Shown piece by piece: positions 10,256-33,339 of a DNA stretch of 33,339 bases. The translations under genes and the position numbers were made by a program. Numbering within the stretch: the stretch's first letter is position 1; each line of letters starts with the position of its first letter. The notes beneath the pieces are model-generated. The model worked only from the letters and a program-made list of their open reading frames with translations. It was not told the origin of the DNA and searched no databases. Source of the stretch: a virus; IMG/VR virus record IMGVR_UViG_3300027896_000133, positions 1 to 33,339 of that record; one strand, 5' to 3'.

Positions 10256-10581
10256 GCCGGCGTCCTCACTGTCATTGTCTTATGATGTGTCACGGCATCA
10301 GCAGCATTAGTGTCTAGGATGTTGACTACTCTGTAAGTCGCTCCCCCATAGACGACATTATTCTCAAGACCCACCACAGTATTTCCATCACAGAAGAACT
10401 TGTGTGTGGCCATGATACCAGACCGACTAAGTATGGCCTGCTGTTCGTTCGACAGTGTGTTGATCCGACAAGGGATATTCGATCCCGTAGTCGTCAAGGC
10501 AACAGACTGGCCTCCGTAGGCATCCACTGTAATTGTTCTGGACTGTATGTCCATCACACTATTGAGTAATCCGGTAAACAT
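10252..10581 (-). CDS. head-tail adaptor / head closure protein
   Basis: 109 aa, RBS GGGAGTCTT overlapping the end of the glycosyltransferase gene. It has the expected size and pattern of the phage head-tail joining family related to SPP1 gp16: an N-terminal MDIQSRTITVDAYGGQ strand pair, then CRINTLSNEQQAILSRSGIMATHKFFCDGN, then a final strand set with YRVVNILDTN and HHKTMTVRTPA. Neighbours on both sides are connector and tail proteins, which supports the call. Confidence 0.72.
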   Translation of the reverse strand: MFTGLLNSVMDIQSRTITVDAYGGQSVALTTTGSNIPCRINTLSNEQQAILSRSGIMATHKFFCDGNTVVGLENNVVYGGATYRVVNILDTNAADAVTHHKTMTVRTPA

Positions 10582-11726
10582 TAAAGACTCCCTTTAATCT
10601 GCTCAAGGACAGGCTTCCAATAGTTCTTGACAACATTATCTATCTGCCAAGGAATTGTTCTCCTGCTGATTTCTTTCCTGTCCACAGAAAGCCGATCAAC
10701 ATACGCTGTGTGCAGTTGATTCACCACATCGTCTGGATCAACCATAAACTGAAAGGCACCCGGGACGGTGGCATACATATTTCCCTTTGTGATCTTCCTG
10801 TAGAAGCCTATTTCATTTGCTGCCGCGAATGCTGGCACAATAGTTGGACAACCAGAAGCCTGCGCCTCCATGATAGGTAATCCAAATCCTTCTCCGTAGC
10901 AGCAGTTGAGATGAACGTCACTGGCATTGTAGGCAAGGTTGAGGTAGTCTTCCCCAAATTGTCCTGTGCTGTATTCCCACTGCGTGACGTAGAACACGCT
11001 GCCATCTTTCACTCCGTAAAGTTTGGCCATCTCTATCAGATCATTGCCACCTGTAAAGTATCCTGTGATGTCTGTGTGTAAATAAAGAAGAGTGTCTGGT
11101 TGTTGTTCGTGAAACTTCTTCCAAGCCTGAAATATAGCTTGATAGTTCTTTCTGCCACCGGCATTTGCTGAAACAACATTGACCAGAAATTTACCTTCAA
11201 GATCCTTGTTGATCAGTTTGCCAAACTCTTTCTTGGCTTCTGCTACACTGCCCATTGGAAAGAACATTCGAGAGTCGTAAGCACAAGGCATCAAGAAAGG
11301 ACTGAGTCCAGCGTCCTGCAACATCTTCACACCCCAGTTAGTCGGAGCCATCGTCCACTTGCAGGCTTGAAGAGGCTTCACATTCCTAACCATCATTGGA
11401 TCACTGTCAACAGGAACCCAAGCACACCAGTTTAATTTGGAAGCTATTTCTGGTGCTATGGAGAAGGCATCAATCCAAGAAATTACTAGATCAGCACCCC
11501 AGCGATCAGCGTGAGTCTTGACCATGTCAATTCCATACTTGCCGTGATGTCCAGAGTCGGGGAACAGTTTAATTCCTTCCCAGACAAGGGTGGTCAAAGG
11601 AGCTCCTGTCACGCAACTGACTGCAACCTCATGGCCGAGTTGCTGAAAACGACGCAACAGGAGCTTTGTCTGCGAGCCGTAACCTGTAGGAACCATAGGC
11701 GGAACACTGTGCCAGAGTATTTTCAA
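10581..11726 (-). CDS. GT4-like glycosyltransferase in the head-tail module
   Basis: 381 aa. The start is TTG: it overlaps the upstream stop as TTGA and has AGGAG eight bases before it. The N-terminal Rossmann half carries a Gly motif (MVPTGYGSQTKLLLRRFQQLGHEV), and the C-terminal half has NAGGRKNYQAIFQAW and the GT4 nucleotide-sugar motif YGEGFGLPIMEAQASGCP with the E-x7-E pair. It should transfer a sugar from an NDP-sugar with retention of configuration. Lying between connector and adaptor genes and co-translated with them, it more likely modifies virion proteins (or host wall) than DNA. Related enzymes occur in structural modules of some actinobacterial phages. Acceptor unknown. Confidence 0.88.
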   Translation of the reverse strand: MKILWHSVPPMVPTGYGSQTKLLLRRFQQLGHEVAVSCVTGAPLTTLVWEGIKLFPDSGHHGKYGIDMVKTHADRWGADLVISWIDAFSIAPEIASKLNWCAWVPVDSDPMMVRNVKPLQACKWTMAPTNWGVKMLQDAGLSPFLMPCAYDSRMFFPMGSVAEAKKEFGKLINKDLEGKFLVNVVSANAGGRKNYQAIFQAWKKFHEQQPDTLLYLHTDITGYFTGGNDLIEMAKLYGVKDGSVFYVTQWEYSTGQFGEDYLNLAYNASDVHLNCCYGEGFGLPIMEAQASGCPTIVPAFAAANEIGFYRKITKGNMYATVPGAFQFMVDPDDVVNQLHTAYVDRLSVDRKEISRRTIPWQIDNVVKNYWKPVLEQIKGSL

Positions 11727-14774: not shown

Positions 14775-16166
14775 TTACGCTGTCGCCTTGAACTGGACAA
14801 CAGGGCTGAGCGTCGAACCGAATGCCGGTGTCAACGGAGCAACGGACTCATTCTGACCATCAATGTACTTGGTCATACGGAAGGCAGTCTGCCCGAGGTC
14901 GAACTTCAGGTGAACGGACTGGGCAATCATCGGCCCGCTCTGATCATCCGCTATGCAATAGTCGCTGAAATCAACCAGCGATACGCAACCAGCCGTTCCA
15001 AGAGCCGGGACCTTTTCAGTCCAGACAATCGGATAGCCCCAAAGGGACTGACCGGGTTCGTTCTGTACGCCACCAGCGAACTGGTTGATGAACACCGGAG
15101 CTCCACCCGTGCCTGCCGCAATGTTGAACATTGGGAGCTGTGGGAACACCGTCTGGTTCATAATCCATGCAACGCTGTTCTTGTTCTTGATACGCAGACG
15201 GGCAAACATAGCCGTGCTGTTTTCGAGAACGAACGTAGTTGCATCCTGCCCTGACTGGAACGCTACCTGAATAAGGCACTTGGCGTTATTGATACCGACA
15301 GGCTGAGAAGCACCCTTGCCACTCAGGAATGTCAGATCTTCTTTCCAACCAATCGCTTCGCCGAACTTCGGAATGAGCCAGCTGCCGAGAGAAACAGGGG
15401 ACCACTTGATCCATTCTTCGCTGGCATAACCCATTGCCGTCATCTTCTTGAGTTTGAACTCAAGTTGTTCGAGCTTCGGCTTGCTTTCTGCACCGGCAGC
15501 ATTCTCATCATCAAAGTAAATCTTGATGCCACCGTATACCGTACCAGTGCTGTGATCAGTGTCACGCAGGTAAGGAATGCGGAGGAGCTGAGTGCCCATG
15601 GTTACACGATTCGCCCGAGGACGAACAATGCTGTTTTCAAGGCTGGTGTTCTGAATGAGCTGGCTTGCCGCTGAGAATATCAGATAGCCACCCGACTCAT
15701 CATCTCCGACCATCATGCCATCGCCTGCGGCTTTGGTGATCAGTTTCTCAGAACGCTCCCTTGCCTTCATCAACAGCTCCGGCTCACGTCCGCCACGAGT
15801 TGCCTTCTGAACATCAACAGCAAACCGGCCAAAGGCATAGTTTACTTCATCCTTGGACAGATCCTTCGCTGACTTGGTGTTGCCGGGAAGGTATCCGTTC
15901 GTAGGATCCTCGTCCGTCATATCCTTCAGGGAGATGTGAGACATCTTGCTCTTAATCTCGCCAATGTCTTTGAGTGCTGCTTCGACTGCCTTTGTTGCGG
16001 CTTCAGAAGCGGCCTTTTCGATGGCCTTGGTAGCAGTGTCATCTGACTCTGATACTTCCTGACCAACACCCTTGGCAACTATGTCCTTGGCAGTGTCATC
16101 GTCCACTTCAATCACAGTACCGACCGCGTGTCCCATCCAACTCTTCACAATTTTGAACTTCTTCAT
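14775..16166 (-). CDS. major capsid protein, HK97 fold
   Basis: The frame opens at GTG 16193, but the ATG at 16166 has the better RBS (AAAAGGAAAAG) and begins MKKFKIVKSWMGH: 463 aa. Residues about 35-75 are an Ala/Lys/Glu coiled coil (ATKAIEKAASEAATKAVEAALKDIGEIKSKM), as in the delta/scaffold domain removed by the prohead protease. The main part has the expected marks: GGYLIFSAASQLIQNTSLENSIVRPRANRV, LEFKLKKMTAMGYASEEWIKWS, WKEDLTFLSGKGASQPVGI, AWIMNQTVFPQL and VDFSDYCIADD. It follows the protease in the operon and is flanked by hairpins. Cleavage near the end of the coiled coil is inferred. Confidence 0.92.
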   Translation of the reverse strand: MKKFKIVKSWMGHAVGTVIEVDDDTAKDIVAKGVGQEVSESDDTATKAIEKAASEAATKAVEAALKDIGEIKSKMSHISLKDMTDEDPTNGYLPGNTKSAKDLSKDEVNYAFGRFAVDVQKATRGGREPELLMKARERSEKLITKAAGDGMMVGDDESGGYLIFSAASQLIQNTSLENSIVRPRANRVTMGTQLLRIPYLRDTDHSTGTVYGGIKIYFDDENAAGAESKPKLEQLEFKLKKMTAMGYASEEWIKWSPVSLGSWLIPKFGEAIGWKEDLTFLSGKGASQPVGINNAKCLIQVAFQSGQDATTFVLENSTAMFARLRIKNKNSVAWIMNQTVFPQLPMFNIAAGTGGAPVFINQFAGGVQNEPGQSLWGYPIVWTEKVPALGTAGCVSLVDFSDYCIADDQSGPMIAQSVHLKFDLGQTAFRMTKYIDGQNESVAPLTPAFGSTLSPVVQFKATA

Positions 16167-16234
16167 TTGCTTTTCCTTTTCTGTTTGTAGCACTCATCGT
16201 GGAGTACTAATTAGTTAGTTTGAACTTTCGTCAG

Positions 16235-16282: not shown

Positions 16283-17932
16283 TTACATCAACTTGCCTGT
16301 TTTCCTACTCAACGCTTTTTCTACTGCTTCGCTGATTCCCTTTGCCAACTGTTCTGCCGTCGGAGGGACGTACAGCACTTTGACACTGGGTGCTGGTTCA
16401 ACTACCTTGATAACAGGAGTGACTGATTTCTCTTCTTTCTTGGAAGAGTCTTTCTTCAGTCCCAAACTTGCCCTCAATTGCCAACCCCACTTAGCATGGG
16501 CGTCCTGTCTGTCAGCCAAGAAGTTTGCTATCCCCTGCTCCCTGTCCGCTGTGGCTACGTCGAACGCTGCTTTGATTTCGTCAATCAACTTCTCATTCAC
16601 CACCAACAGATCAACAGCCAAGGCTCTTGGGTCTGTAGCTGGGTCAGGAGTCTCTGTACTGGCTGACATCTGTACAAGGTTGGCAGGAACAGATTCCCCC
16701 AGCTTCCTTATGTTCTCAGCCATAGGGTCAATAGCATTCCAAGCGTCGTCGTATATTTCACCGAACAGGCTGTGCCATTCTGTAAAGTCGGGACCAACCA
16801 CATTCCAATGAGCTGTGTGGGCCTGAGCATAGAAGGCAAACGTGTTGGTGAGAACTCCTGTCAGAGCTGGGACAAGGCTGGATTCTTCTGTCACATCTTC
16901 CAATGCCTTCTCCTCTTTCTTTACAGGCTTCATCTTGCCCTTGCACCCTTCTGCCGAGCAGTCAGTCCCAGCAACAACCTTGCGCTTCATGTCACACACA
17001 GGACACTGACACATTTCAGCAACAGGCTTTTCCTTGGAATCAGAACCATAACCACCGTCTTCATCCTTGCCGTTCTCCATGCCCATGCCAAATTCCTTGA
17101 TGATGACTGGGTGACCATTCCTTGAGAGGACTGTAATAGACTTCAAATGCGTTTCTTCTTTCTTTTCAGAAGTCAGGTCAAACTTATCAATATGCTTCTC
17201 TTCAACCTTCTTCTCCTCTTCCTTCTTGTTGATCACTTCCGGTTCCCAGCCCAACTGCTTGATCACCTTGTCGGCAAGACTGAACCCTTTGACAACGTGA
17301 AGCATTTCAGCATCAATGTTGCAAGGAACAGAGACGAAACTATGCTCCAGCAAAACTCCGCCAGTGATAATCCGGATGCGAGACTTGGCTGCAACGTCTT
17401 TGCTGAACTCCTTCCAGCTTGACTGCAACTTGTTGGCTACGGTGTCCCAGTCACGGTGTCCAGGCTTGGTGAATGTAGTGGGAACAATTCCTATTGAGCT
17501 TGCCTTCATGTGGCCTTGCTCAACCAAGTGCCAGACCACGTTGGCAAGTGTGCCTTCGCCAGTGTTAGCGTGATTAGTCAGAGCCTTGATGCCAAAGTCG
17601 TCTGCTTCGATCATTTCGTCGGAGCCTATTGGAAGCAGACTGTAGTTGTGGTTGACGAGGACGTGCATGTACTTGCGAAATTCATTCAGGTTCAAACCTT
17701 TGGGCACGACGATCTCGTTGTCCCTGTCCATCGTCCTCGCTGAAACGTACTTCAACGATTGCCGCTTGGAGCTGTCTATCTGGTTGACTTTGCTCTTCTC
17801 ACTGTAGGTTGAGCGGTGCATTTCCAGATCGTCTGTTTTGATTCCTGAATCTTTTGCCACGTGTACAAAAGCATCCTTCAACCAATCCGGACTGAACTCT
17901 GCCATCTCTGCTATCTTTACTACCTTCTTCAT
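16283..17932 (-). CDS. prohead protease (S78-like) fused to zinc-ribbon and Dps/ferritin-like domain
   Basis: 549 aa with RBS GTGAGGACATG. Residues 50-225 are the HK97-family prohead protease: H95 in VLVNHNYSLLPIGSD, S145/S146 in MKASSIGIVP and E196 in LLEHSFVSVPCNIDA fit the expected catalytic sites. A charged linker follows. Residues 308-330 (CQCPVC, then DCSAEGC) look like a zinc ribbon. Residues 353-492 resemble Dps: AHTAHWNVVGPDFTEWHSLFGE, then AIDPMAENIRKLGE, then DRQDAHAKWGWQLRASL. H375, H387, D402 and E406 match the spacing of ferroxidase ligands of E. coli Dps; the Dps Asp at H387+4 is Gly, with Glu next to it. A Lys/Glu tail ends the chain. The usual protease is about 200-250 aa, so the fusion more than doubles it. 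Confidence 0.9.
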   Translation of the reverse strand: MKKVVKIAEMAEFSPDWLKDAFVHVAKDSGIKTDDLEMHRSTYSEKSKVNQIDSSKRQSLKYVSARTMDRDNEIVVPKGLNLNEFRKYMHVLVNHNYSLLPIGSDEMIEADDFGIKALTNHANTGEGTLANVVWHLVEQGHMKASSIGIVPTTFTKPGHRDWDTVANKLQSSWKEFSKDVAAKSRIRIITGGVLLEHSFVSVPCNIDAEMLHVVKGFSLADKVIKQLGWEPEVINKKEEEKKVEEKHIDKFDLTSEKKEETHLKSITVLSRNGHPVIIKEFGMGMENGKDEDGGYGSDSKEKPVAEMCQCPVCDMKRKVVAGTDCSAEGCKGKMKPVKKEEKALEDVTEESSLVPALTGVLTNTFAFYAQAHTAHWNVVGPDFTEWHSLFGEIYDDAWNAIDPMAENIRKLGESVPANLVQMSASTETPDPATDPRALAVDLLVVNEKLIDEIKAAFDVATADREQGIANFLADRQDAHAKWGWQLRASLGLKKDSSKKEEKSVTPVIKVVEPAPSVKVLYVPPTAEQLAKGISEAVEKALSRKTGKLM

Positions 17933-17980: not shown

Positions 17981-18077
17981 GCTGTCTGTAAGCCTCTATA
18001 CGAGGTCGCAATGAATAGAACGGGCACTTGTGTTAATAAACTGCTCGACGCTTTGTAGCGCGTCCTAGAGCGTTTTA
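17981..18077 (-). repeat. dispersed intergenic repeat, copy D
   Basis: Best-preserved long copy. 17992-18054 is identical to copy A in inverse orientation (63 bases). On the transcribed strand it begins TAAAACGCTCTAGGA, in which the TAA is the stop codon of the head morphogenesis gene, and can form CTC-tag-GACGC / GCGTC-GAG, with a final CCTC/GAGG hairpin. Compared with copy B, the ends are conserved and the interior differs. Confidence 0.88.
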
Positions 18078-19466
18078 CTCTTTTGCTATAAATCCTTCTG
18101 CTTTAGCGTCTTTGAATGACATGCTATCAGAAGAGGAATACAGTGCCACCGGAATCGCTGTAGCTCCTTGATCTCTCATATAAGCAAAACGATGCCGGCC
18201 ATTGATGAACTGAAGACTTCCTCTTGGACTGTACTCACCCTTGCCCAGAAGCACTTCAGACACTTCTATGGACTCGTTGCCTTTGAAGTATTCCGCGAAG
18301 TCAGGGTAACGAGTCTTAATCCCACCCTCACCTTCTTTGCCTATATACTGCTGGTCATTCTTCTTGAAACCTTCTTCTGCCTTCTTGGTGTCCAGCCAAA
18401 CTAAGCGGACATCCTCACCATGCTTGATATCGTGGACAGCTCTCTTTGGAAGGACGAAAGTCTTTTCTGACATCGTCTTGTCGAAGTCCTTCTCAGGAGC
18501 AGAGCCATCACCTTCTCCACTGCCACCTACTTCTCCTGGCCTACCTTCGTGGCCAAAGTTGCCTGAGCCAGCACCACCCTTGACTGACTTCTCTTCCTCT
18601 GCCTGATCCCCTTCCTCTGTGTCATCATCAGCCACTTCAGCATCATCGAACAACTGGCCAACCAAAGCACATCTGCAGTTAGGATGGAGTGGCGGTCCAC
18701 CGACGTCTCCGTAGTTCTGCTCCATGCTGATTTCCTTGCCACCCCAGTCTATGTCCTGGGTGTCACCTTCCTCGAAGAAATTATCTTCCAACTCGACGAC
18801 TGTGCCATCCATGTCAAGACAAAAGGGACAAGCATCAGCTGCTGCCACCCACACCTTGTTCTTGACGACTCCTGTTGACTTCCACGCCTCGACATGTCCC
18901 TTGCTAAATGCTCTGGCTGATTCTGTTCTTGCTATGCGTTCAGCTCTGTAACCTTCCCAGCCATCGTAAAGTTCTTCAACTCTATCAGACAGCTCAGCTA
19001 TGGTCTCTCCGTTCTCCATTCCTTCAAGCAAGGCTTCCCTGAGAGTGTCAGCAGAAGTGGTGCTGATAGACTCTGCGAACAGAAACTCCTCTGCCTCCAA
19101 AGCGTCTAGCACATCCTGATCTTCTATCCACTCAGCGAAATCTATCTCGATCTTGCTGGCTTTTGCTTTGGTTGTTGGCTTGTGTGACTTCTTTGCCTTT
19201 GGCAACTTGACCACTTCCTTGAGTGCCTTGTCTCCACCAGCTTTGAAGATAGCCAAGATATCAGAGTGAACTGTCTTGACTATGTCCTTGTCCCACTTGT
19301 CACTGAGCTTGAACTTCTTCGCAGAGGCAGGAGTAGTAGGAAGACTGGAAAGTACTTCCTTCTTCTGCTTCTTGAAGATAGTCTTTATGGCATCACGCAA
19401 AGACTCTTCCTGCTTTGAAGGAGGAGTGCCTAACAGATGCTTGTGACTGTGGGTGTGATGGTTCAT
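18075..19466 (-). CDS. head morphogenesis protein (Mu gpF / SPP1 gp7-like) with ParB-like C-terminal domain
   Basis: 463 aa, starting on the portal stop (ATGA). The N-terminus is His-rich (five His in the first ten residues). Residues 100-270 are the minor head protein domain: RIARTESARAFSKGHVEAW, CPFC at 213-216 and HPNCRC at 261-266, the family signature. A Glu/Asp linker is followed by GAGSGNFGHEGRPGEVGGSG, a motif often found before extra domains in such proteins. Residues 330-463 form a separate domain with LQFINGRHRFAYMRDQGATAIPVAL; the GRHR at 423-426 and the 'IPV' ending match the ParB/Srx-type fold. The C-terminal domain may be a DNA-acting or nucleotide-dependent activity carried in the head. 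Its stop codon is the first codon of repeat copy D. Confidence 0.85.
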   Translation of the reverse strand: MNHHTHSHKHLLGTPPSKQEESLRDAIKTIFKKQKKEVLSSLPTTPASAKKFKLSDKWDKDIVKTVHSDILAIFKAGGDKALKEVVKLPKAKKSHKPTTKAKASKIEIDFAEWIEDQDVLDALEAEEFLFAESISTTSADTLREALLEGMENGETIAELSDRVEELYDGWEGYRAERIARTESARAFSKGHVEAWKSTGVVKNKVWVAAADACPFCLDMDGTVVELEDNFFEEGDTQDIDWGGKEISMEQNYGDVGGPPLHPNCRCALVGQLFDDAEVADDDTEEGDQAEEEKSVKGGAGSGNFGHEGRPGEVGGSGEGDGSAPEKDFDKTMSEKTFVLPKRAVHDIKHGEDVRLVWLDTKKAEEGFKKNDQQYIGKEGEGGIKTRYPDFAEYFKGNESIEVSEVLLGKGEYSPRGSLQFINGRHRFAYMRDQGATAIPVALYSSSDSMSFKDAKAEGFIAKE

Positions 19467-21130
19467 ATCTTCAAAAGTCTTGCCGTCTCTCTGTCTGTTC
19501 TGATCTTGTCAGCTCCACCACGATCGAACCTGCCACCTTCATTCCTGACCTTTGGCTTGACACTGATCTTGATAGGCAGACCAGCAAGTGTAGGATGTAT
19601 GTGATGTCCTGCCACTTCCATGTTCAGGTTCTTGTGGTTGAACTTCTTGCCAACGTCCAACGCCTCGTCTTCAGCGTTCTCTGTGTCTCTTTCGTCTTCA
19701 GAAGAAGAAGCACCACCAGAGGAGTCGGTCTGCTCTCCGTTCTGATTCACTTGTTCCTGTCCAGGGATGGCTGGCTTTTTCCCGCTAGCATCTTCCGGAG
19801 GAGTTGTCGTGCTCCCTAGTGGTGCAATTCCAAATGGAGCCAACGGCACATCACCCCAAGCTACTGGGTCTAGGCCGTCTCTGTGTCTGATCTCATTGAT
19901 TGTAGTCTGGTATGTAGCAAGCCTCTGTGTGTCTTCACTGTTCTGTAGGACCTTGTCTTTGGGAACAGGGTTGTCAAAGGCAAGGAACAGTCTGTCGTCG
20001 AACATGGGCGTCAACTGCTCATTTAACTTCTGCTCTATACGTGTACAACGTGGCAGTGTGTTGTACATCGCCATATACAGGTCAGACCCTTCCATGCCAG
20101 ACCTAGGAGCACGACTGATCTGTGAAGAGTCAATCAGTCCTAGTGGAACAGGGAACACGGCGCATATCTTTTTCAGAATCCAATCTTCACCTTTGTTGAA
20201 GTCCAGCTCATTGGGATTCCAACCAACCTTGTCTATCTCATAACGGAAGTCTGTGACCTTGACTTTGCCAGCGTTCTTGGCACCACGGAACATAGCGTTC
20301 CATTCACGTTCAACAGATGCTCTTTGCTGTGGGTCTAGTTCTCCCTCTGTGTACTTGACGATCAGGTCAGGCCTTGCCATGTTGTTCATTGTGGCGAGGA
20401 CAAACTTCTCTCTCAGCTCGTTTGACTCTATTGCGTATGCTGCCGCCTGTACTGGCCCCATGCCATACCAAGGGTCAAGAGGGTTAGGATACTTGAAATG
20501 GATTATTTCTTCAGGAGCAAGTTCCAGCCTTGTGTCTGTGCCCCAGCTGTTGTTGTAACCGTACCAGTAGCCCTTGATGAACTTCTCTTTATCTGGAATG
20601 ATCCTGACATACTGACTTCTGAGAACAAAAAACTTGGTAGGCACACCCATTCTGTCTTTCTCGATCATCCAGTAGGCATCGCCAGTAAGGTCGAGCATTA
20701 TGGAAGTGAGTTCTTTTACTTCAAAACCGTTTTCCTGATCATTAACATTCTGTAGCAAATCAAGCAGTGGATGCTCTTCGAGTTCTTCAAAGTCCTCAGA
20801 TCCAACTACGTGCTCAAGTGCCTTACACTGCTTGCGAAGTCTTTGAGTAGTGTCCTTGTCAACAGGCTTGGTTCTGAAGTTCTTGACAGTGGTCTCTCCC
20901 TTGCCTCTTGAAGCATACAGGCGAAGAGGGACAGAAGCGACACGAACGGCACTCACATTGGCACAGGCATACGTCCAACCAAAGTACTTTTGAGCCAGTG
21001 CTTGACGACTGACATCAGGCACCTTGCCATACCTTGTCATAAAGTCAATGACACCATTCGGCAGGGAGACTTCAGTCACCTTGCTGAACAGTTGACTGGT
21101 TGCGGCTTTGATTCGTCCAATTAGATTCAT
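19463..21130 (-). CDS. portal protein (HK97-type)
   Basis: 555 aa; the start overlaps the 39-aa gene's stop by ATGA. It shows the expected order of portal features: FGWTYACANVSAVRVASVPLRLYA near the N-terminus, then LTSIMLDLTGDAYWMIEKDRMGVPTKFFVLRSQYVRIIPD (wing), EEIIHFKYPNPLDPWYGMGPVQAAAYAIES, then PDLIVKYTEGELDPQQRASVEREWNAMFRG and KKICAVFPVPLGLIDSS, and RIEQKLNEQLTPMFD (stem/clip region). The C-terminus is extended by a low-complexity, Pro/Ser/Glu-rich tail (TTPPEDASGKKPAIPGQEQVNQNGEQTDSSGGASSSEDERD), then KVRNEGGRFDRGGADKIR. It forms the dodecameric vertex that terminase docks on. Confidence 0.92.
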   Translation of the reverse strand: MNLIGRIKAATSQLFSKVTEVSLPNGVIDFMTRYGKVPDVSRQALAQKYFGWTYACANVSAVRVASVPLRLYASRGKGETTVKNFRTKPVDKDTTQRLRKQCKALEHVVGSEDFEELEEHPLLDLLQNVNDQENGFEVKELTSIMLDLTGDAYWMIEKDRMGVPTKFFVLRSQYVRIIPDKEKFIKGYWYGYNNSWGTDTRLELAPEEIIHFKYPNPLDPWYGMGPVQAAAYAIESNELREKFVLATMNNMARPDLIVKYTEGELDPQQRASVEREWNAMFRGAKNAGKVKVTDFRYEIDKVGWNPNELDFNKGEDWILKKICAVFPVPLGLIDSSQISRAPRSGMEGSDLYMAMYNTLPRCTRIEQKLNEQLTPMFDDRLFLAFDNPVPKDKVLQNSEDTQRLATYQTTINEIRHRDGLDPVAWGDVPLAPFGIAPLGSTTTPPEDASGKKPAIPGQEQVNQNGEQTDSSGGASSSEDERDTENAEDEALDVGKKFNHKNLNMEVAGHHIHPTLAGLPIKISVKPKVRNEGGRFDRGGADKIRTDRETARLLKI

Positions 21131-21246: not shown

Positions 21247-21431
21247 CGTATTGATCCACCACTATTGGGAAGTATGTTTGTCCTGTTGCCAAAACTGTCC
21301 CAGATGCTGTCATCATCCATCAGTCGTGCTTCTCTCTGTGCTTCCGACTCTTCTGCACCACGACTGACTGAAGGAGCCTTTGCCATATCAGCTAGTCTTG
21401 CTTTCATCTGTTCAATAGGTGACTCATTCAT
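21243..21431 (-). CDS. small charged protein between terminase and portal
   Basis: 62 aa, starting within the stop of the large terminase (ATGA) and ending within the start of the 39-aa peptide. Mostly helical and charged (SPIEQMKARLADMAKAPSVSRGAEESEAQREARLMDDDSIWDSFG). It resembles no family I can name. Tight coupling on both sides suggests it is real and used in packaging or head assembly. Confidence 0.7.
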   Translation of the reverse strand: MNESPIEQMKARLADMAKAPSVSRGAEESEAQREARLMDDDSIWDSFGNRTNILPNSGGSIR

Positions 21432-22981
21432 ACGACAACTCCTGAACTCCTGAGCAACTTCAACATCTCTTCGCGTTCTTCTGGTGTCTTTGCCCGATCA
21501 AGTAAATCCTTGAAGATACTCTCAGCGTGCTCTTCTGTACTAGGAGTACTGCCAGCGTGCGGTGCGATTCTCTTGTAGACTAATTTGTTGAAGGCTCCTG
21601 TACTGGCGTCTGTCTTGTCCCTGAACTTCCCACTAGGAAACAATTCCAATTCTTCCAAGTAGTCTTTAGTCCACGGACGATTGAGTATGGCCACGTTGCC
21701 GGCTTCGACTTGAGACGCAAAAGGCTCTGCCCTGCTGACCTTATCACCAGTGACGCGGTCTGCATTGACTGTGAAGCCTCTGAGATTGCGGACAGTGGCT
21801 TCTGCACTTTCTTTGCCTCCTGATCCCGGTTCCTGTTCGCACCAGATCCTGACAGAACGTCCATCTAGTCTTGCGGTTTGTGCTATCCTTGTTTCACGTT
21901 CAAGAGCACCCCACTGGCCGGCAACACAATCAGCTACCAAGTAAGTGTGGTCCTTCATCTCGTGTATTAAGACACCGGCAGTCAGACACCCTGAACCAAC
22001 TGAACCAGCCTTGTCCCAATAGCGAATAGACCTATTGATCATATTCACAGGCACATTATCCACCAGTCGGATGTGGGCTGTCTTGAACATATTGCCTGTA
22101 CGTGGAACTGGTCTTTGCTGATAGAGTGCTGCGAAGTTGAACTCACCCAACTGCTTCTTTATGCCGGCCATTGCTTGAGCATTGAACAGGGAGGGCCAAA
22201 GGGCATCGCCTGATTTACGCTTATCGTAGTCGCTGTAAGAACCGACTGCAGGTGACTCGCTATCTTTGACTGCCTCAAACTGCAGGACAGTCCATTCGTG
22301 CCTGTCTTTATCGGCATCGAGAAGTCTGCCAGCCAAATCGTCGTGATGCCAGCGAGTCTGAACTAATATGATTGCTGAATCGTCTGAGGCACGTCTTGTA
22401 TAGAACACCGCATTGTACCACTCCCACAGCCTCTCTCTATATGTGACACTGTCAGCCTCAAGACGGTCCTTGATCGGATCGTCAATTAGTCCAATATCAA
22501 AACCACGCCCAGTTATCCCACCCATGATACCGGAGCTCTTGTAGAGTCCCCTGCGTCCGACTACTTCAAACTCGTCACTGTTGCGAACACCGTCTTGCGT
22601 GGTTGTTCCGCCGATTCTTGTGTTAGGAAATATGAGAGGATATCTGTCTCCAACTATTATGCGCTGGATATCTCTGTTCGCTACTCTTGCCAAACCATCT
22701 GAATATGAAGTAGCGATTATGTTCTTGTCCGGGAGCTTACCTAATATATAGGCGGGAAACCTTTTGCTGATTAGTTCTGTCTTCCCATGTCGGGGAGGAG
22801 TGAAGACCATCAACCTCTTAATTTTACCCGCAAGCACGTTGTCAAGAGCTGACGCAATCGCCAAATGATGCCAGTTAATTCGGTATTCGGGAAACGTGTA
22901 CTCAGTGAAGCCGATAACTGAAGACATCGCTTTTACGCGACGTCTGAGTTCTTCAACTATCTGAGTCTTCTTCACCACCAT
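21428..22981 (-). CDS. terL: terminase large subunit
   Basis: 517 aa, RBS GGAGACC. ATPase part: Walker A-like TPPRHGKTE at 61-69, then TSYSDGLARVANRDIQRII, Walker B at about 163-168 (IGLIDDP) and a coupling motif SAIILVQTRWHHDDLAGRLL. Nuclease part: IRYWDKAGS near 320, where D323 is the expected first metal ligand, then VRIWCEQEPGSGGKESAEATVRNL. Order and length fit the Terminase_6C family. It cuts concatemers and drives DNA into the head through the portal. It overlaps the small terminase gene by 29 bases. Confidence 0.95.
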   Translation of the reverse strand: MVVKKTQIVEELRRRVKAMSSVIGFTEYTFPEYRINWHHLAIASALDNVLAGKIKRLMVFTPPRHGKTELISKRFPAYILGKLPDKNIIATSYSDGLARVANRDIQRIIVGDRYPLIFPNTRIGGTTTQDGVRNSDEFEVVGRRGLYKSSGIMGGITGRGFDIGLIDDPIKDRLEADSVTYRERLWEWYNAVFYTRRASDDSAIILVQTRWHHDDLAGRLLDADKDRHEWTVLQFEAVKDSESPAVGSYSDYDKRKSGDALWPSLFNAQAMAGIKKQLGEFNFAALYQQRPVPRTGNMFKTAHIRLVDNVPVNMINRSIRYWDKAGSVGSGCLTAGVLIHEMKDHTYLVADCVAGQWGALERETRIAQTARLDGRSVRIWCEQEPGSGGKESAEATVRNLRGFTVNADRVTGDKVSRAEPFASQVEAGNVAILNRPWTKDYLEELELFPSGKFRDKTDASTGAFNKLVYKRIAPHAGSTPSTEEHAESIFKDLLDRAKTPEEREEMLKLLRSSGVVV

Positions 22982-32955: not shown

Positions 32956-33339
32956 ATGGCAAAGGTTACTACAGCAGAACTGGTCAACGCAGCGAAGGAA
33001 CTCACAAAGTCACTCGGTATCAAGCCGGCAATCGAAGTCGAAGTTAAGAACGTCACGGACAAGGATCTTATCGAATCCCTGACATCAGCTTCGGAGATGT
33101 TTGAGGCGGGGGACACCTTCTCGAAGGAAACAACAGCCACCCTTAAGAAGCTGAAACTTGAAGTGCCTTCCAAGGCAAAGGACGAGGAGTCTGACGACGA
33201 GGACGAAGTTGACGAGGACGAAGTTGACGAAGACGAAGTTGACGAAGACGAGGATGAGGAAGTCCCAGTCAAGAAGTCCAAGAAGCCTGCGAAGGACGAG
33301 GAGTCTGACGACGAGGACGAAGTTGACGAAGACGAAGTT
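32956..33339 (+). CDS. acidic-repeat protein (C-terminus cut by window edge)
   Basis: ATG at 32956 with RBS AAAGGAG; 128 codons open to the right edge. Residues 1-75 are a mixed helical domain (TTAELVNAAKELTKSLGIKPAIEVEVKNVTDKDLIESLTSASEMFEAG). From residue 74 an acidic unit, KDEESDDEDEVDEDEVDEDE, repeats after a basic spacer (PVKKSKKPAK), with three or more DEDEV tandems in each. Such tails can mimic DNA or act as protein contacts of ssDNA-binding and histone-like proteins. It has its own promoter and operator. Function unknown. Confidence 0.78.
   Translation, partial: MAKVTTAELVNAAKELTKSLGIKPAIEVEVKNVTDKDLIESLTSASEMFEAGDTFSKETTATLKKLKLEVPSKAKDEESDDEDEVDEDEVDEDEVDEDEDEEVPVKKSKKPAKDEESDDEDEVDEDEV

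Follow-up and report, generated by a model that had tools for sequence, protein, structure and literature searches.

A prohead maturation protease carrying a phage-type Dps domain in a variable middle slot, its recurrence among viral contigs and a possible role inside the capsid

Introduction

Prohead proteases act inside procapsids. A gene in which such a protease is continuous with a Dps domain therefore raises two questions, namely whether the fusion is genuine and what a member of the ferritin family would be doing in an enzyme of capsid maturation. The gene considered here lies on a 33,339-base IMG/VR virus contig, the whole of which is referred to below as the window. A first-pass annotation, made from the letters alone, had proposed the fusion, suggested several uses for the Dps part and named a sequencing error joining two genes among the things that would undo its reading. 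We have examined the domains and their neighbours, asked how often the architecture recurs, and weighed the roles that the fused Dps may have.

Results

The open reading frame at 16283..17932 runs from ATG to stop and encodes a 549-residue protein (P0001) with Pfam, PHROG and PDB matches, in the order prohead protease, zinc ribbon, Dps and C-terminal tail. The single continuous frame reported by the first-pass annotation is real, but it belongs to the minus strand, the plus-strand translation of 16283-17932 being riddled with stops. All the neighbouring head genes are on the same strand, and in the order of transcription they encode the terminase large subunit (21428..22981; PHROG 38, 5.5e-84), the portal protein (19463..21130; Pfam, 7e-48), a MuF-like minor head protein with an additional C-terminal region (18075..19466; Pfam Phage_Mu_F, 2.6e-16), the fusion and an HK97-fold major capsid protein with an N-terminal delta-like region (14775..16193; Pfam Phage_capsid, 1.5e-35). 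The position of the fusion gene between the MuF and capsid genes is the usual one for a prohead protease. Elsewhere in the window, the MuF-like protein contains a GGAGSGNFGHEGRPGEVGGSG linker and its extra C-terminal region is weakly PFIN-like (below cut-off), a group 1 glycosyltransferase gene (10581-11726, minus strand) sits within the head-tail connector block, and the contig end (about 33160-33339, plus strand) is a highly repetitive acidic coding sequence (DEDEVDEDEV). Rfam and tRNA scans of the whole window gave no matches.

Residues 1-235 (17228..17932, minus strand) form an S78/assemblin-like prohead protease domain. The PHROG head-maturation-protease profiles 80 and 617 match the protein at 3.7e-6 and 9.4e-7, and a Pfam search with it returned no S78 match, the S78 cut-off being passed by its relatives L093, L107 and L096. 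Across 14 aligned sequences D69-R70-D71, H95, S146, G148 and E196 are invariant, so that S146 is the likely nucleophile; of the catalytic residues annotated earlier, H95, E196 and S146 were borne out by this invariance, the assemblin fold and the PHROG matches, and the alternative S145 was not. The AlphaFold model of residues 1-239 has a mean pLDDT of 78, and among solved folds it is closest to T4 gp21 (Z 10.4, rmsd 3.0 over 128 residues), followed by the herpesvirus assemblins (Z 5-7).

The Dps domain occupies residues 351-491 (16460..16882, minus strand). Pfam Ferritin (PF00210) matches residues 357-491 at 8.8e-15 (55.3 bits against a cut-off of 24.5), PHROG 3636 matches residues 351-490 at 1e-20, and Dps chains in the PDB match the fusion protein down to 7e-14. 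The model of this domain (pLDDT 90, pTM 0.83) has helices at 13-37, 43-70, 79-83, 95-122 and 126-150, that is, the four long helices and the short BC helix typical of Dps, and it superimposes on solved Dps structures with Z of about 20 and rmsd 1.6-1.8 over 145 residues (2c41: Z 20.8). The Dps-like block originally placed at 353-492 therefore has the four-helix bundle expected of it. By homology, the ferroxidase positions are occupied by H375, H387, D402 and E406, the residues picked out from their spacing at the start, and these four ligands are unvaried in all 178 Dps domains compared (44 in protease fusions, 21 in other long ORFs and 113 stand-alone).

In Dps of the E. coli type, an Asp or Glu four residues beyond the second His provides a fifth ligand. 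The first-pass annotation had correctly read Gly (Gly391) at this position after H387, with Glu beside it at +5. Since Gly is found there in 69 of the best 80 viral Dps aligned, and in about half of the wider set, it is a trait of a viral Dps subfamily rather than a loss. The position is variable and the acid absent in many viral Dps, and it is therefore not taken as essential for membership of the Dps family.

Between the two domains lies a zinc-ribbon-like group of five cysteines (C308, C310, C313, C325 and C330; 16943..17011, minus strand), which follows the CxCxxC...C....C pattern noted previously at 308-330. Related ribbons are present in the Dps-less relatives L089, L090, L092 and L093, so the ribbon is common to family members with and without Dps. 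The linkers flanking the Dps domain are rich in Lys and Glu and contain two candidate self-cleavage sites, KEEK342/A343 on the N-terminal side (16898..16915) and EEK502/S503 on the C-terminal side (16418..16435), both on the minus strand and both predicted from sequence; they are the only two matches in the fusion protein to the pattern tested. The HK97 capsid protein is cut at K103/S104 (PMC10275583), and at the corresponding place the capsid protein of the window has an invariant K154/AAG, a candidate cleavage site. Cleavage at both linkers would free a Dps of normal size (160 residues), which is offered as a suggestion; type d fusions (see below) are without such candidate sites. A scar of insertion between flanking KKEEK repeats was also considered and discounted, the repeats being of low complexity. 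The protein closes with a conserved C-terminal tail (residues 497-549; 16286..16444, minus strand) ending in AVEKALSRKTGKLM, and a terminal GK-type motif is found in most relatives.

The closest comparison is provided by L089, an 8.6-kb contig whose capsid protein is 65% identical to that of the window. Against the window protein, its protease is 68% identical in residues 1-230 and 64% identical in the final 53, and its middle, with zinc ribbons, a segment reading GHEFHGNQH and a coiled coil, is devoid of Dps. The protease of L090 is 75% identical to that of the window, its ORF ending at the contig edge, and L090, L092 and L093 have other middles again, with a BRX-like domain in L093. Dps thus fills a swappable slot between conserved protease ends, and since L089 and L092, and L090 as far as its ORF reaches, have no Dps, the domain is dispensable in the lineage of the window. 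The same comparison bears on whether two genes have been joined artificially by an assembly chimera or a frameshift. The record is metagenomic, which leaves room for such an error, but the Dps of the window is bracketed by sequences that match both ends of the single L089 protein, and at least 43 further distinct protease-Dps ORFs occur on other contigs. We regard an artefact as exceedingly improbable, and the sequencing error feared at the outset as excluded.

Some features of these relatives are recorded here in their own right. The BRX-like domain (PF08381) is in the equivalent slot of two related prohead proteases (L093:6001-7758 and L096:2571-3698); elsewhere, BRX has been described as a regulator in plants. 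In L089 the MuF-like protein (L089:2-1405) is split by an intein/HINT domain within its HPNC-RC motif (Pfam Intein_splicing, 1.6e-11), and a glycosyltransferase gene similar to that of the window follows the connector gene. A linker of the kind seen in the window MuF (GGAGSGNFGHEGRPGEVGGSG) occurs in the protease slot of L090, whose MuF-like protein is 1178 residues long.

The first searches gave the impression of a singleton. A single-sequence scan of IMG/VR with the full-length window protein found no relatives, and in the first IMG/VR scan for Dps the best 80 matches were almost all stand-alone viral Dps. This reading was overturned by a structure search and by a second IMG/VR pattern. When the Dps model was compared with predicted viral proteins (BFVD) by Foldseek, the top matches were long and several were labelled 'Prohead protease' (A0A6J7WIS1, 432 aa; A0A6J7XDU5, 333 aa; A0A6J7WPK9, 763 aa), and A0A6J7XDU5 and A0A6J5N5R9 were matched by the protease model and the Dps model alike. 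Two further IMG/VR scans, with ORFs classified by local profiles, Pfam and PHROGs, yielded at least 65 distinct long Dps ORFs, at least 44 of which include a prohead protease (that of the window among them), alongside 113 distinct stand-alone Dps domains among the loci collected; as the Dps scans return the best 80 of at least about 600 matches, ranked by similarity to the window, these counts are biased. The profile search that had been recommended for other protease-Dps fusions was thus productive, and the architecture is no one-off: proteases of several diverged kinds are involved, and both domain orders occur.

Besides the window fusion (type a), there are type b, with S78 matches down to 9e-39 (at least 21 Dps-first and at least two protease-first), type d, in which protease and Dps are followed by an acidic/coiled-coil scaffold-like part (at least 10), and type e, a different protease-Dps-scaffold type (at least six). 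At least two proteins combine a PHROG 9427 protease with DUF6321 and Dps, at least one is of a PHROG 3270 type (a weak match, 2e-6), and at least one is a 1646-aa portal-protease-Dps protein (L240:2-4939), a single polypeptide whose protease is head-maturation-protease-like. Portal and capsid genes adjoin the fusions wherever neighbours were checked. Two other long Dps proteins are of different kinds: in L183:3587-5998, whose product matches PHROG 16619, a family of minor head proteins, Dps is joined to a zeta-toxin domain, and L032:3701-5434, from a different phage type, encodes 578 residues in which the long stretches on either side of the Dps domain are unannotated; a lysine-rich ORF of 757 aa adjoins it.

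No protease-Dps fusion was found in the isolate phage genomes searched, where L141 matched ordinary proteases only among the matches listed, or in the plasmids searched, and a narrow exact protease pattern had no match in 84,980 cellular species genomes. A KAHNYHWN-type Dps pattern, very common in viral contigs, was found in the same genomes on two contigs, both from a single Gammaproteobacteria MAG. Since viral contigs are rich in this pattern and cells are nearly empty of it, a phage-specific branch of Dps is suggested, the cellular absence being only suggestive with one narrow exact pattern.

The modules have also moved independently of each other. In a Dps tree of 146 columns, in which many forks are unresolved, the fused Dps mostly group together, and the labels for eight protease types change at least eight times among the fusions. 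Among the matches listed, the closest Dps to that of the window stand at the N-terminus of type b fusions (identity up to 59-60%), which have the opposite domain order and another protease. Similarly, L148 and L141 have Dps domains that are 71% identical and proteases that are 29% identical, in reversed order. Within a single ORF, L146:1075-2544 and L172:3333-4856 have nearly identical proteases (pS 0.03) but diverged Dps DNA (pS 0.35), a sign of recent exchange confined to the Dps module. Fused Dps pairs have dN of about 0.03-0.28 against dS of about 0.5-2 in the pairs that allowed an estimate, resembling the protease, and the fused Dps domains are therefore under strong purifying selection.

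Discussion

Since prohead proteases act inside procapsids, a Dps domain fused to one is expected to be found there as well. We propose, with a probability of roughly 0.55, that the Dps is a capsid-internal module loaded together with the protease and serves as a ferroxidase that protects the packaged DNA. The protein would be a prohead maturation protease with a phage-type Dps subunit in its variable middle slot, and the protease and C-terminal tail would bring the Dps in as the procapsid assembles. Self-cleavage at the flanking EEK/A and EEK/S linkers would perhaps then free the Dps, which may assemble in the procapsid and remain with the packaged genome. There it could bind and oxidise iron and consume peroxide, so shielding the DNA, or condense part of it, until infection. 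Both location and chemistry are inferred, the former from what prohead proteases are known to do. The invariance of the ligands together with purifying selection suggests that iron chemistry matters, and for the same reason an intracapsid ferroxidase or DNA-protecting role is favoured. It counts against this proposal that the nearest relatives of the window phage (L089, L092 and, over the length of its ORF, L090) do without Dps, that type d shows no candidate sites for cleavage, and that many viral Dps are stand-alone genes, which means that Dps can serve phages without being packaged.

We rank intracapsid protection ahead of the other roles considered. The Dps may instead be an oligomerisation or internal-scaffold module, gathering the protease beneath the shell by way of dimers or 12-mers, or seeding a core, the metal sites being simply inherited. 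Types d and e do place Dps between the protease and a coiled-coil scaffold-like region, and in L089 the slot of the window family holds a coiled coil instead; yet invariance of the four ligands in 178 of 178 domains is unexpected for a purely structural use and, with purifying selection, favours a catalytic or protective one, and other contents of the slot, such as zinc ribbons and the BRX-like domain, are not oligomer cages. A scaffold is therefore considered unlikely, and delivery of Dps into the host with the genome, lowering early iron and oxidative stress, slightly more so. A 12-mer Dps cage is about 9 nm across and too wide to pass a tail tube intact, which disfavours this reading. It gains from the joining of Dps to a zeta-toxin domain in the minor-head-like L183, from the proposal that polyvalent virion proteins are injected (PMC5512222), although that paper has no Dps or ferritin term, and from the frequency of ROS-defence genes in freshwater phages (PMC6802176).

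The Dps could also act in the infected cell before packaging, with fusion to a late protein setting only its timing and amount. Stand-alone phage Dps genes near nucleotide-metabolism genes, and the interpretation of phage Dps as host-protection genes (PMC8008677), agree with this, but late expression does not call for repeated attachment, in both orders, to one kind of capsid protein, and we rate the idea a little lower still. That the protease is gated by Dps when the latter binds metal or peroxide, which would make maturation sense iron or redox state, is quite improbable: the two domains do share one polypeptide with the ligands retained, but Dps precedes the protease in some fusions and follows it in others and the linkers differ, so conserved allosteric coupling is not suggested.

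Both domains are known, whereas their combination and its recurrence look new; a published protease-Dps fusion was not found in the open-access full texts searched, most subscription papers and bioRxiv preprints lying outside that scope. Virions are usually regarded as metabolically inert. If the intracapsid role is correct, some phages build control of oxidative damage into the particle by means of a ferroxidase tied to a procapsid enzyme, and the fusion would provide a natural means of bringing cargo into capsids. A wider and more tentative proposal, to which we give somewhat less than even odds, is that tailed phages carry intracapsid ferritin, in that Dps cages built in by way of the protease would manage iron and oxidants around the DNA as a viral counterpart of encapsulin-ferritin compartments, and would have originated when members of one Dps clade were grafted repeatedly onto capsid proteases of diverged types.

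In comparison with known systems, the window protein shares its fold, its H-S-E residues and its gene position before the capsid gene with the HK97-type S78 protease, T4 gp21 and the herpes assemblins, but adds the zinc ribbon, the variable cargo slot and Dps. Bacterial Dps (PF00210; T. elongatus 2c41, Listeria 1qgh, P. aeruginosa PA0962 8ff9) have the fold, BC helix, H-H-D-E ligands and size of the window Dps, which differs in lying inside a viral protease and in belonging to a viral subfamily whose fifth ligand position is often Gly. Stand-alone phage Dps are already known (PMC8008677, PMC6669764), and mass spectrometry of a Vi01-like phage has revealed one ferritin-like protein (PMC10892097). 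The stand-alone domains (PHROG 3636; Gratiaviridae, Lactobacillus, Cronobacter and Synechococcus S-SRM01 phages) are homologous to that of the window and have the same ligands, but they are separate genes, often near nucleotide-metabolism genes in the isolates examined, with no tie to capsid maturation. The polyvalent proteins (PMC5512222) are, like the window fusion, multidomain, with swappable modules and a predicted virion location, but in them an assemblin-like peptidase is invariably at the C-terminus. Encapsulins are HK97-fold shells with ferritin-like cargo (PMC9321382) and are thus analogous to the proposed intracapsid Dps, but they are without a packaged genome, portal, terminase or protease and load their cargo by a targeting peptide; as the window has portal, terminase and protease genes, it is not itself an encapsulin cargo system. 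If Dps is indeed packaged with the protease, the two HK97-fold stories, of phage heads and of ferritin-loaded encapsulins, would be joined.
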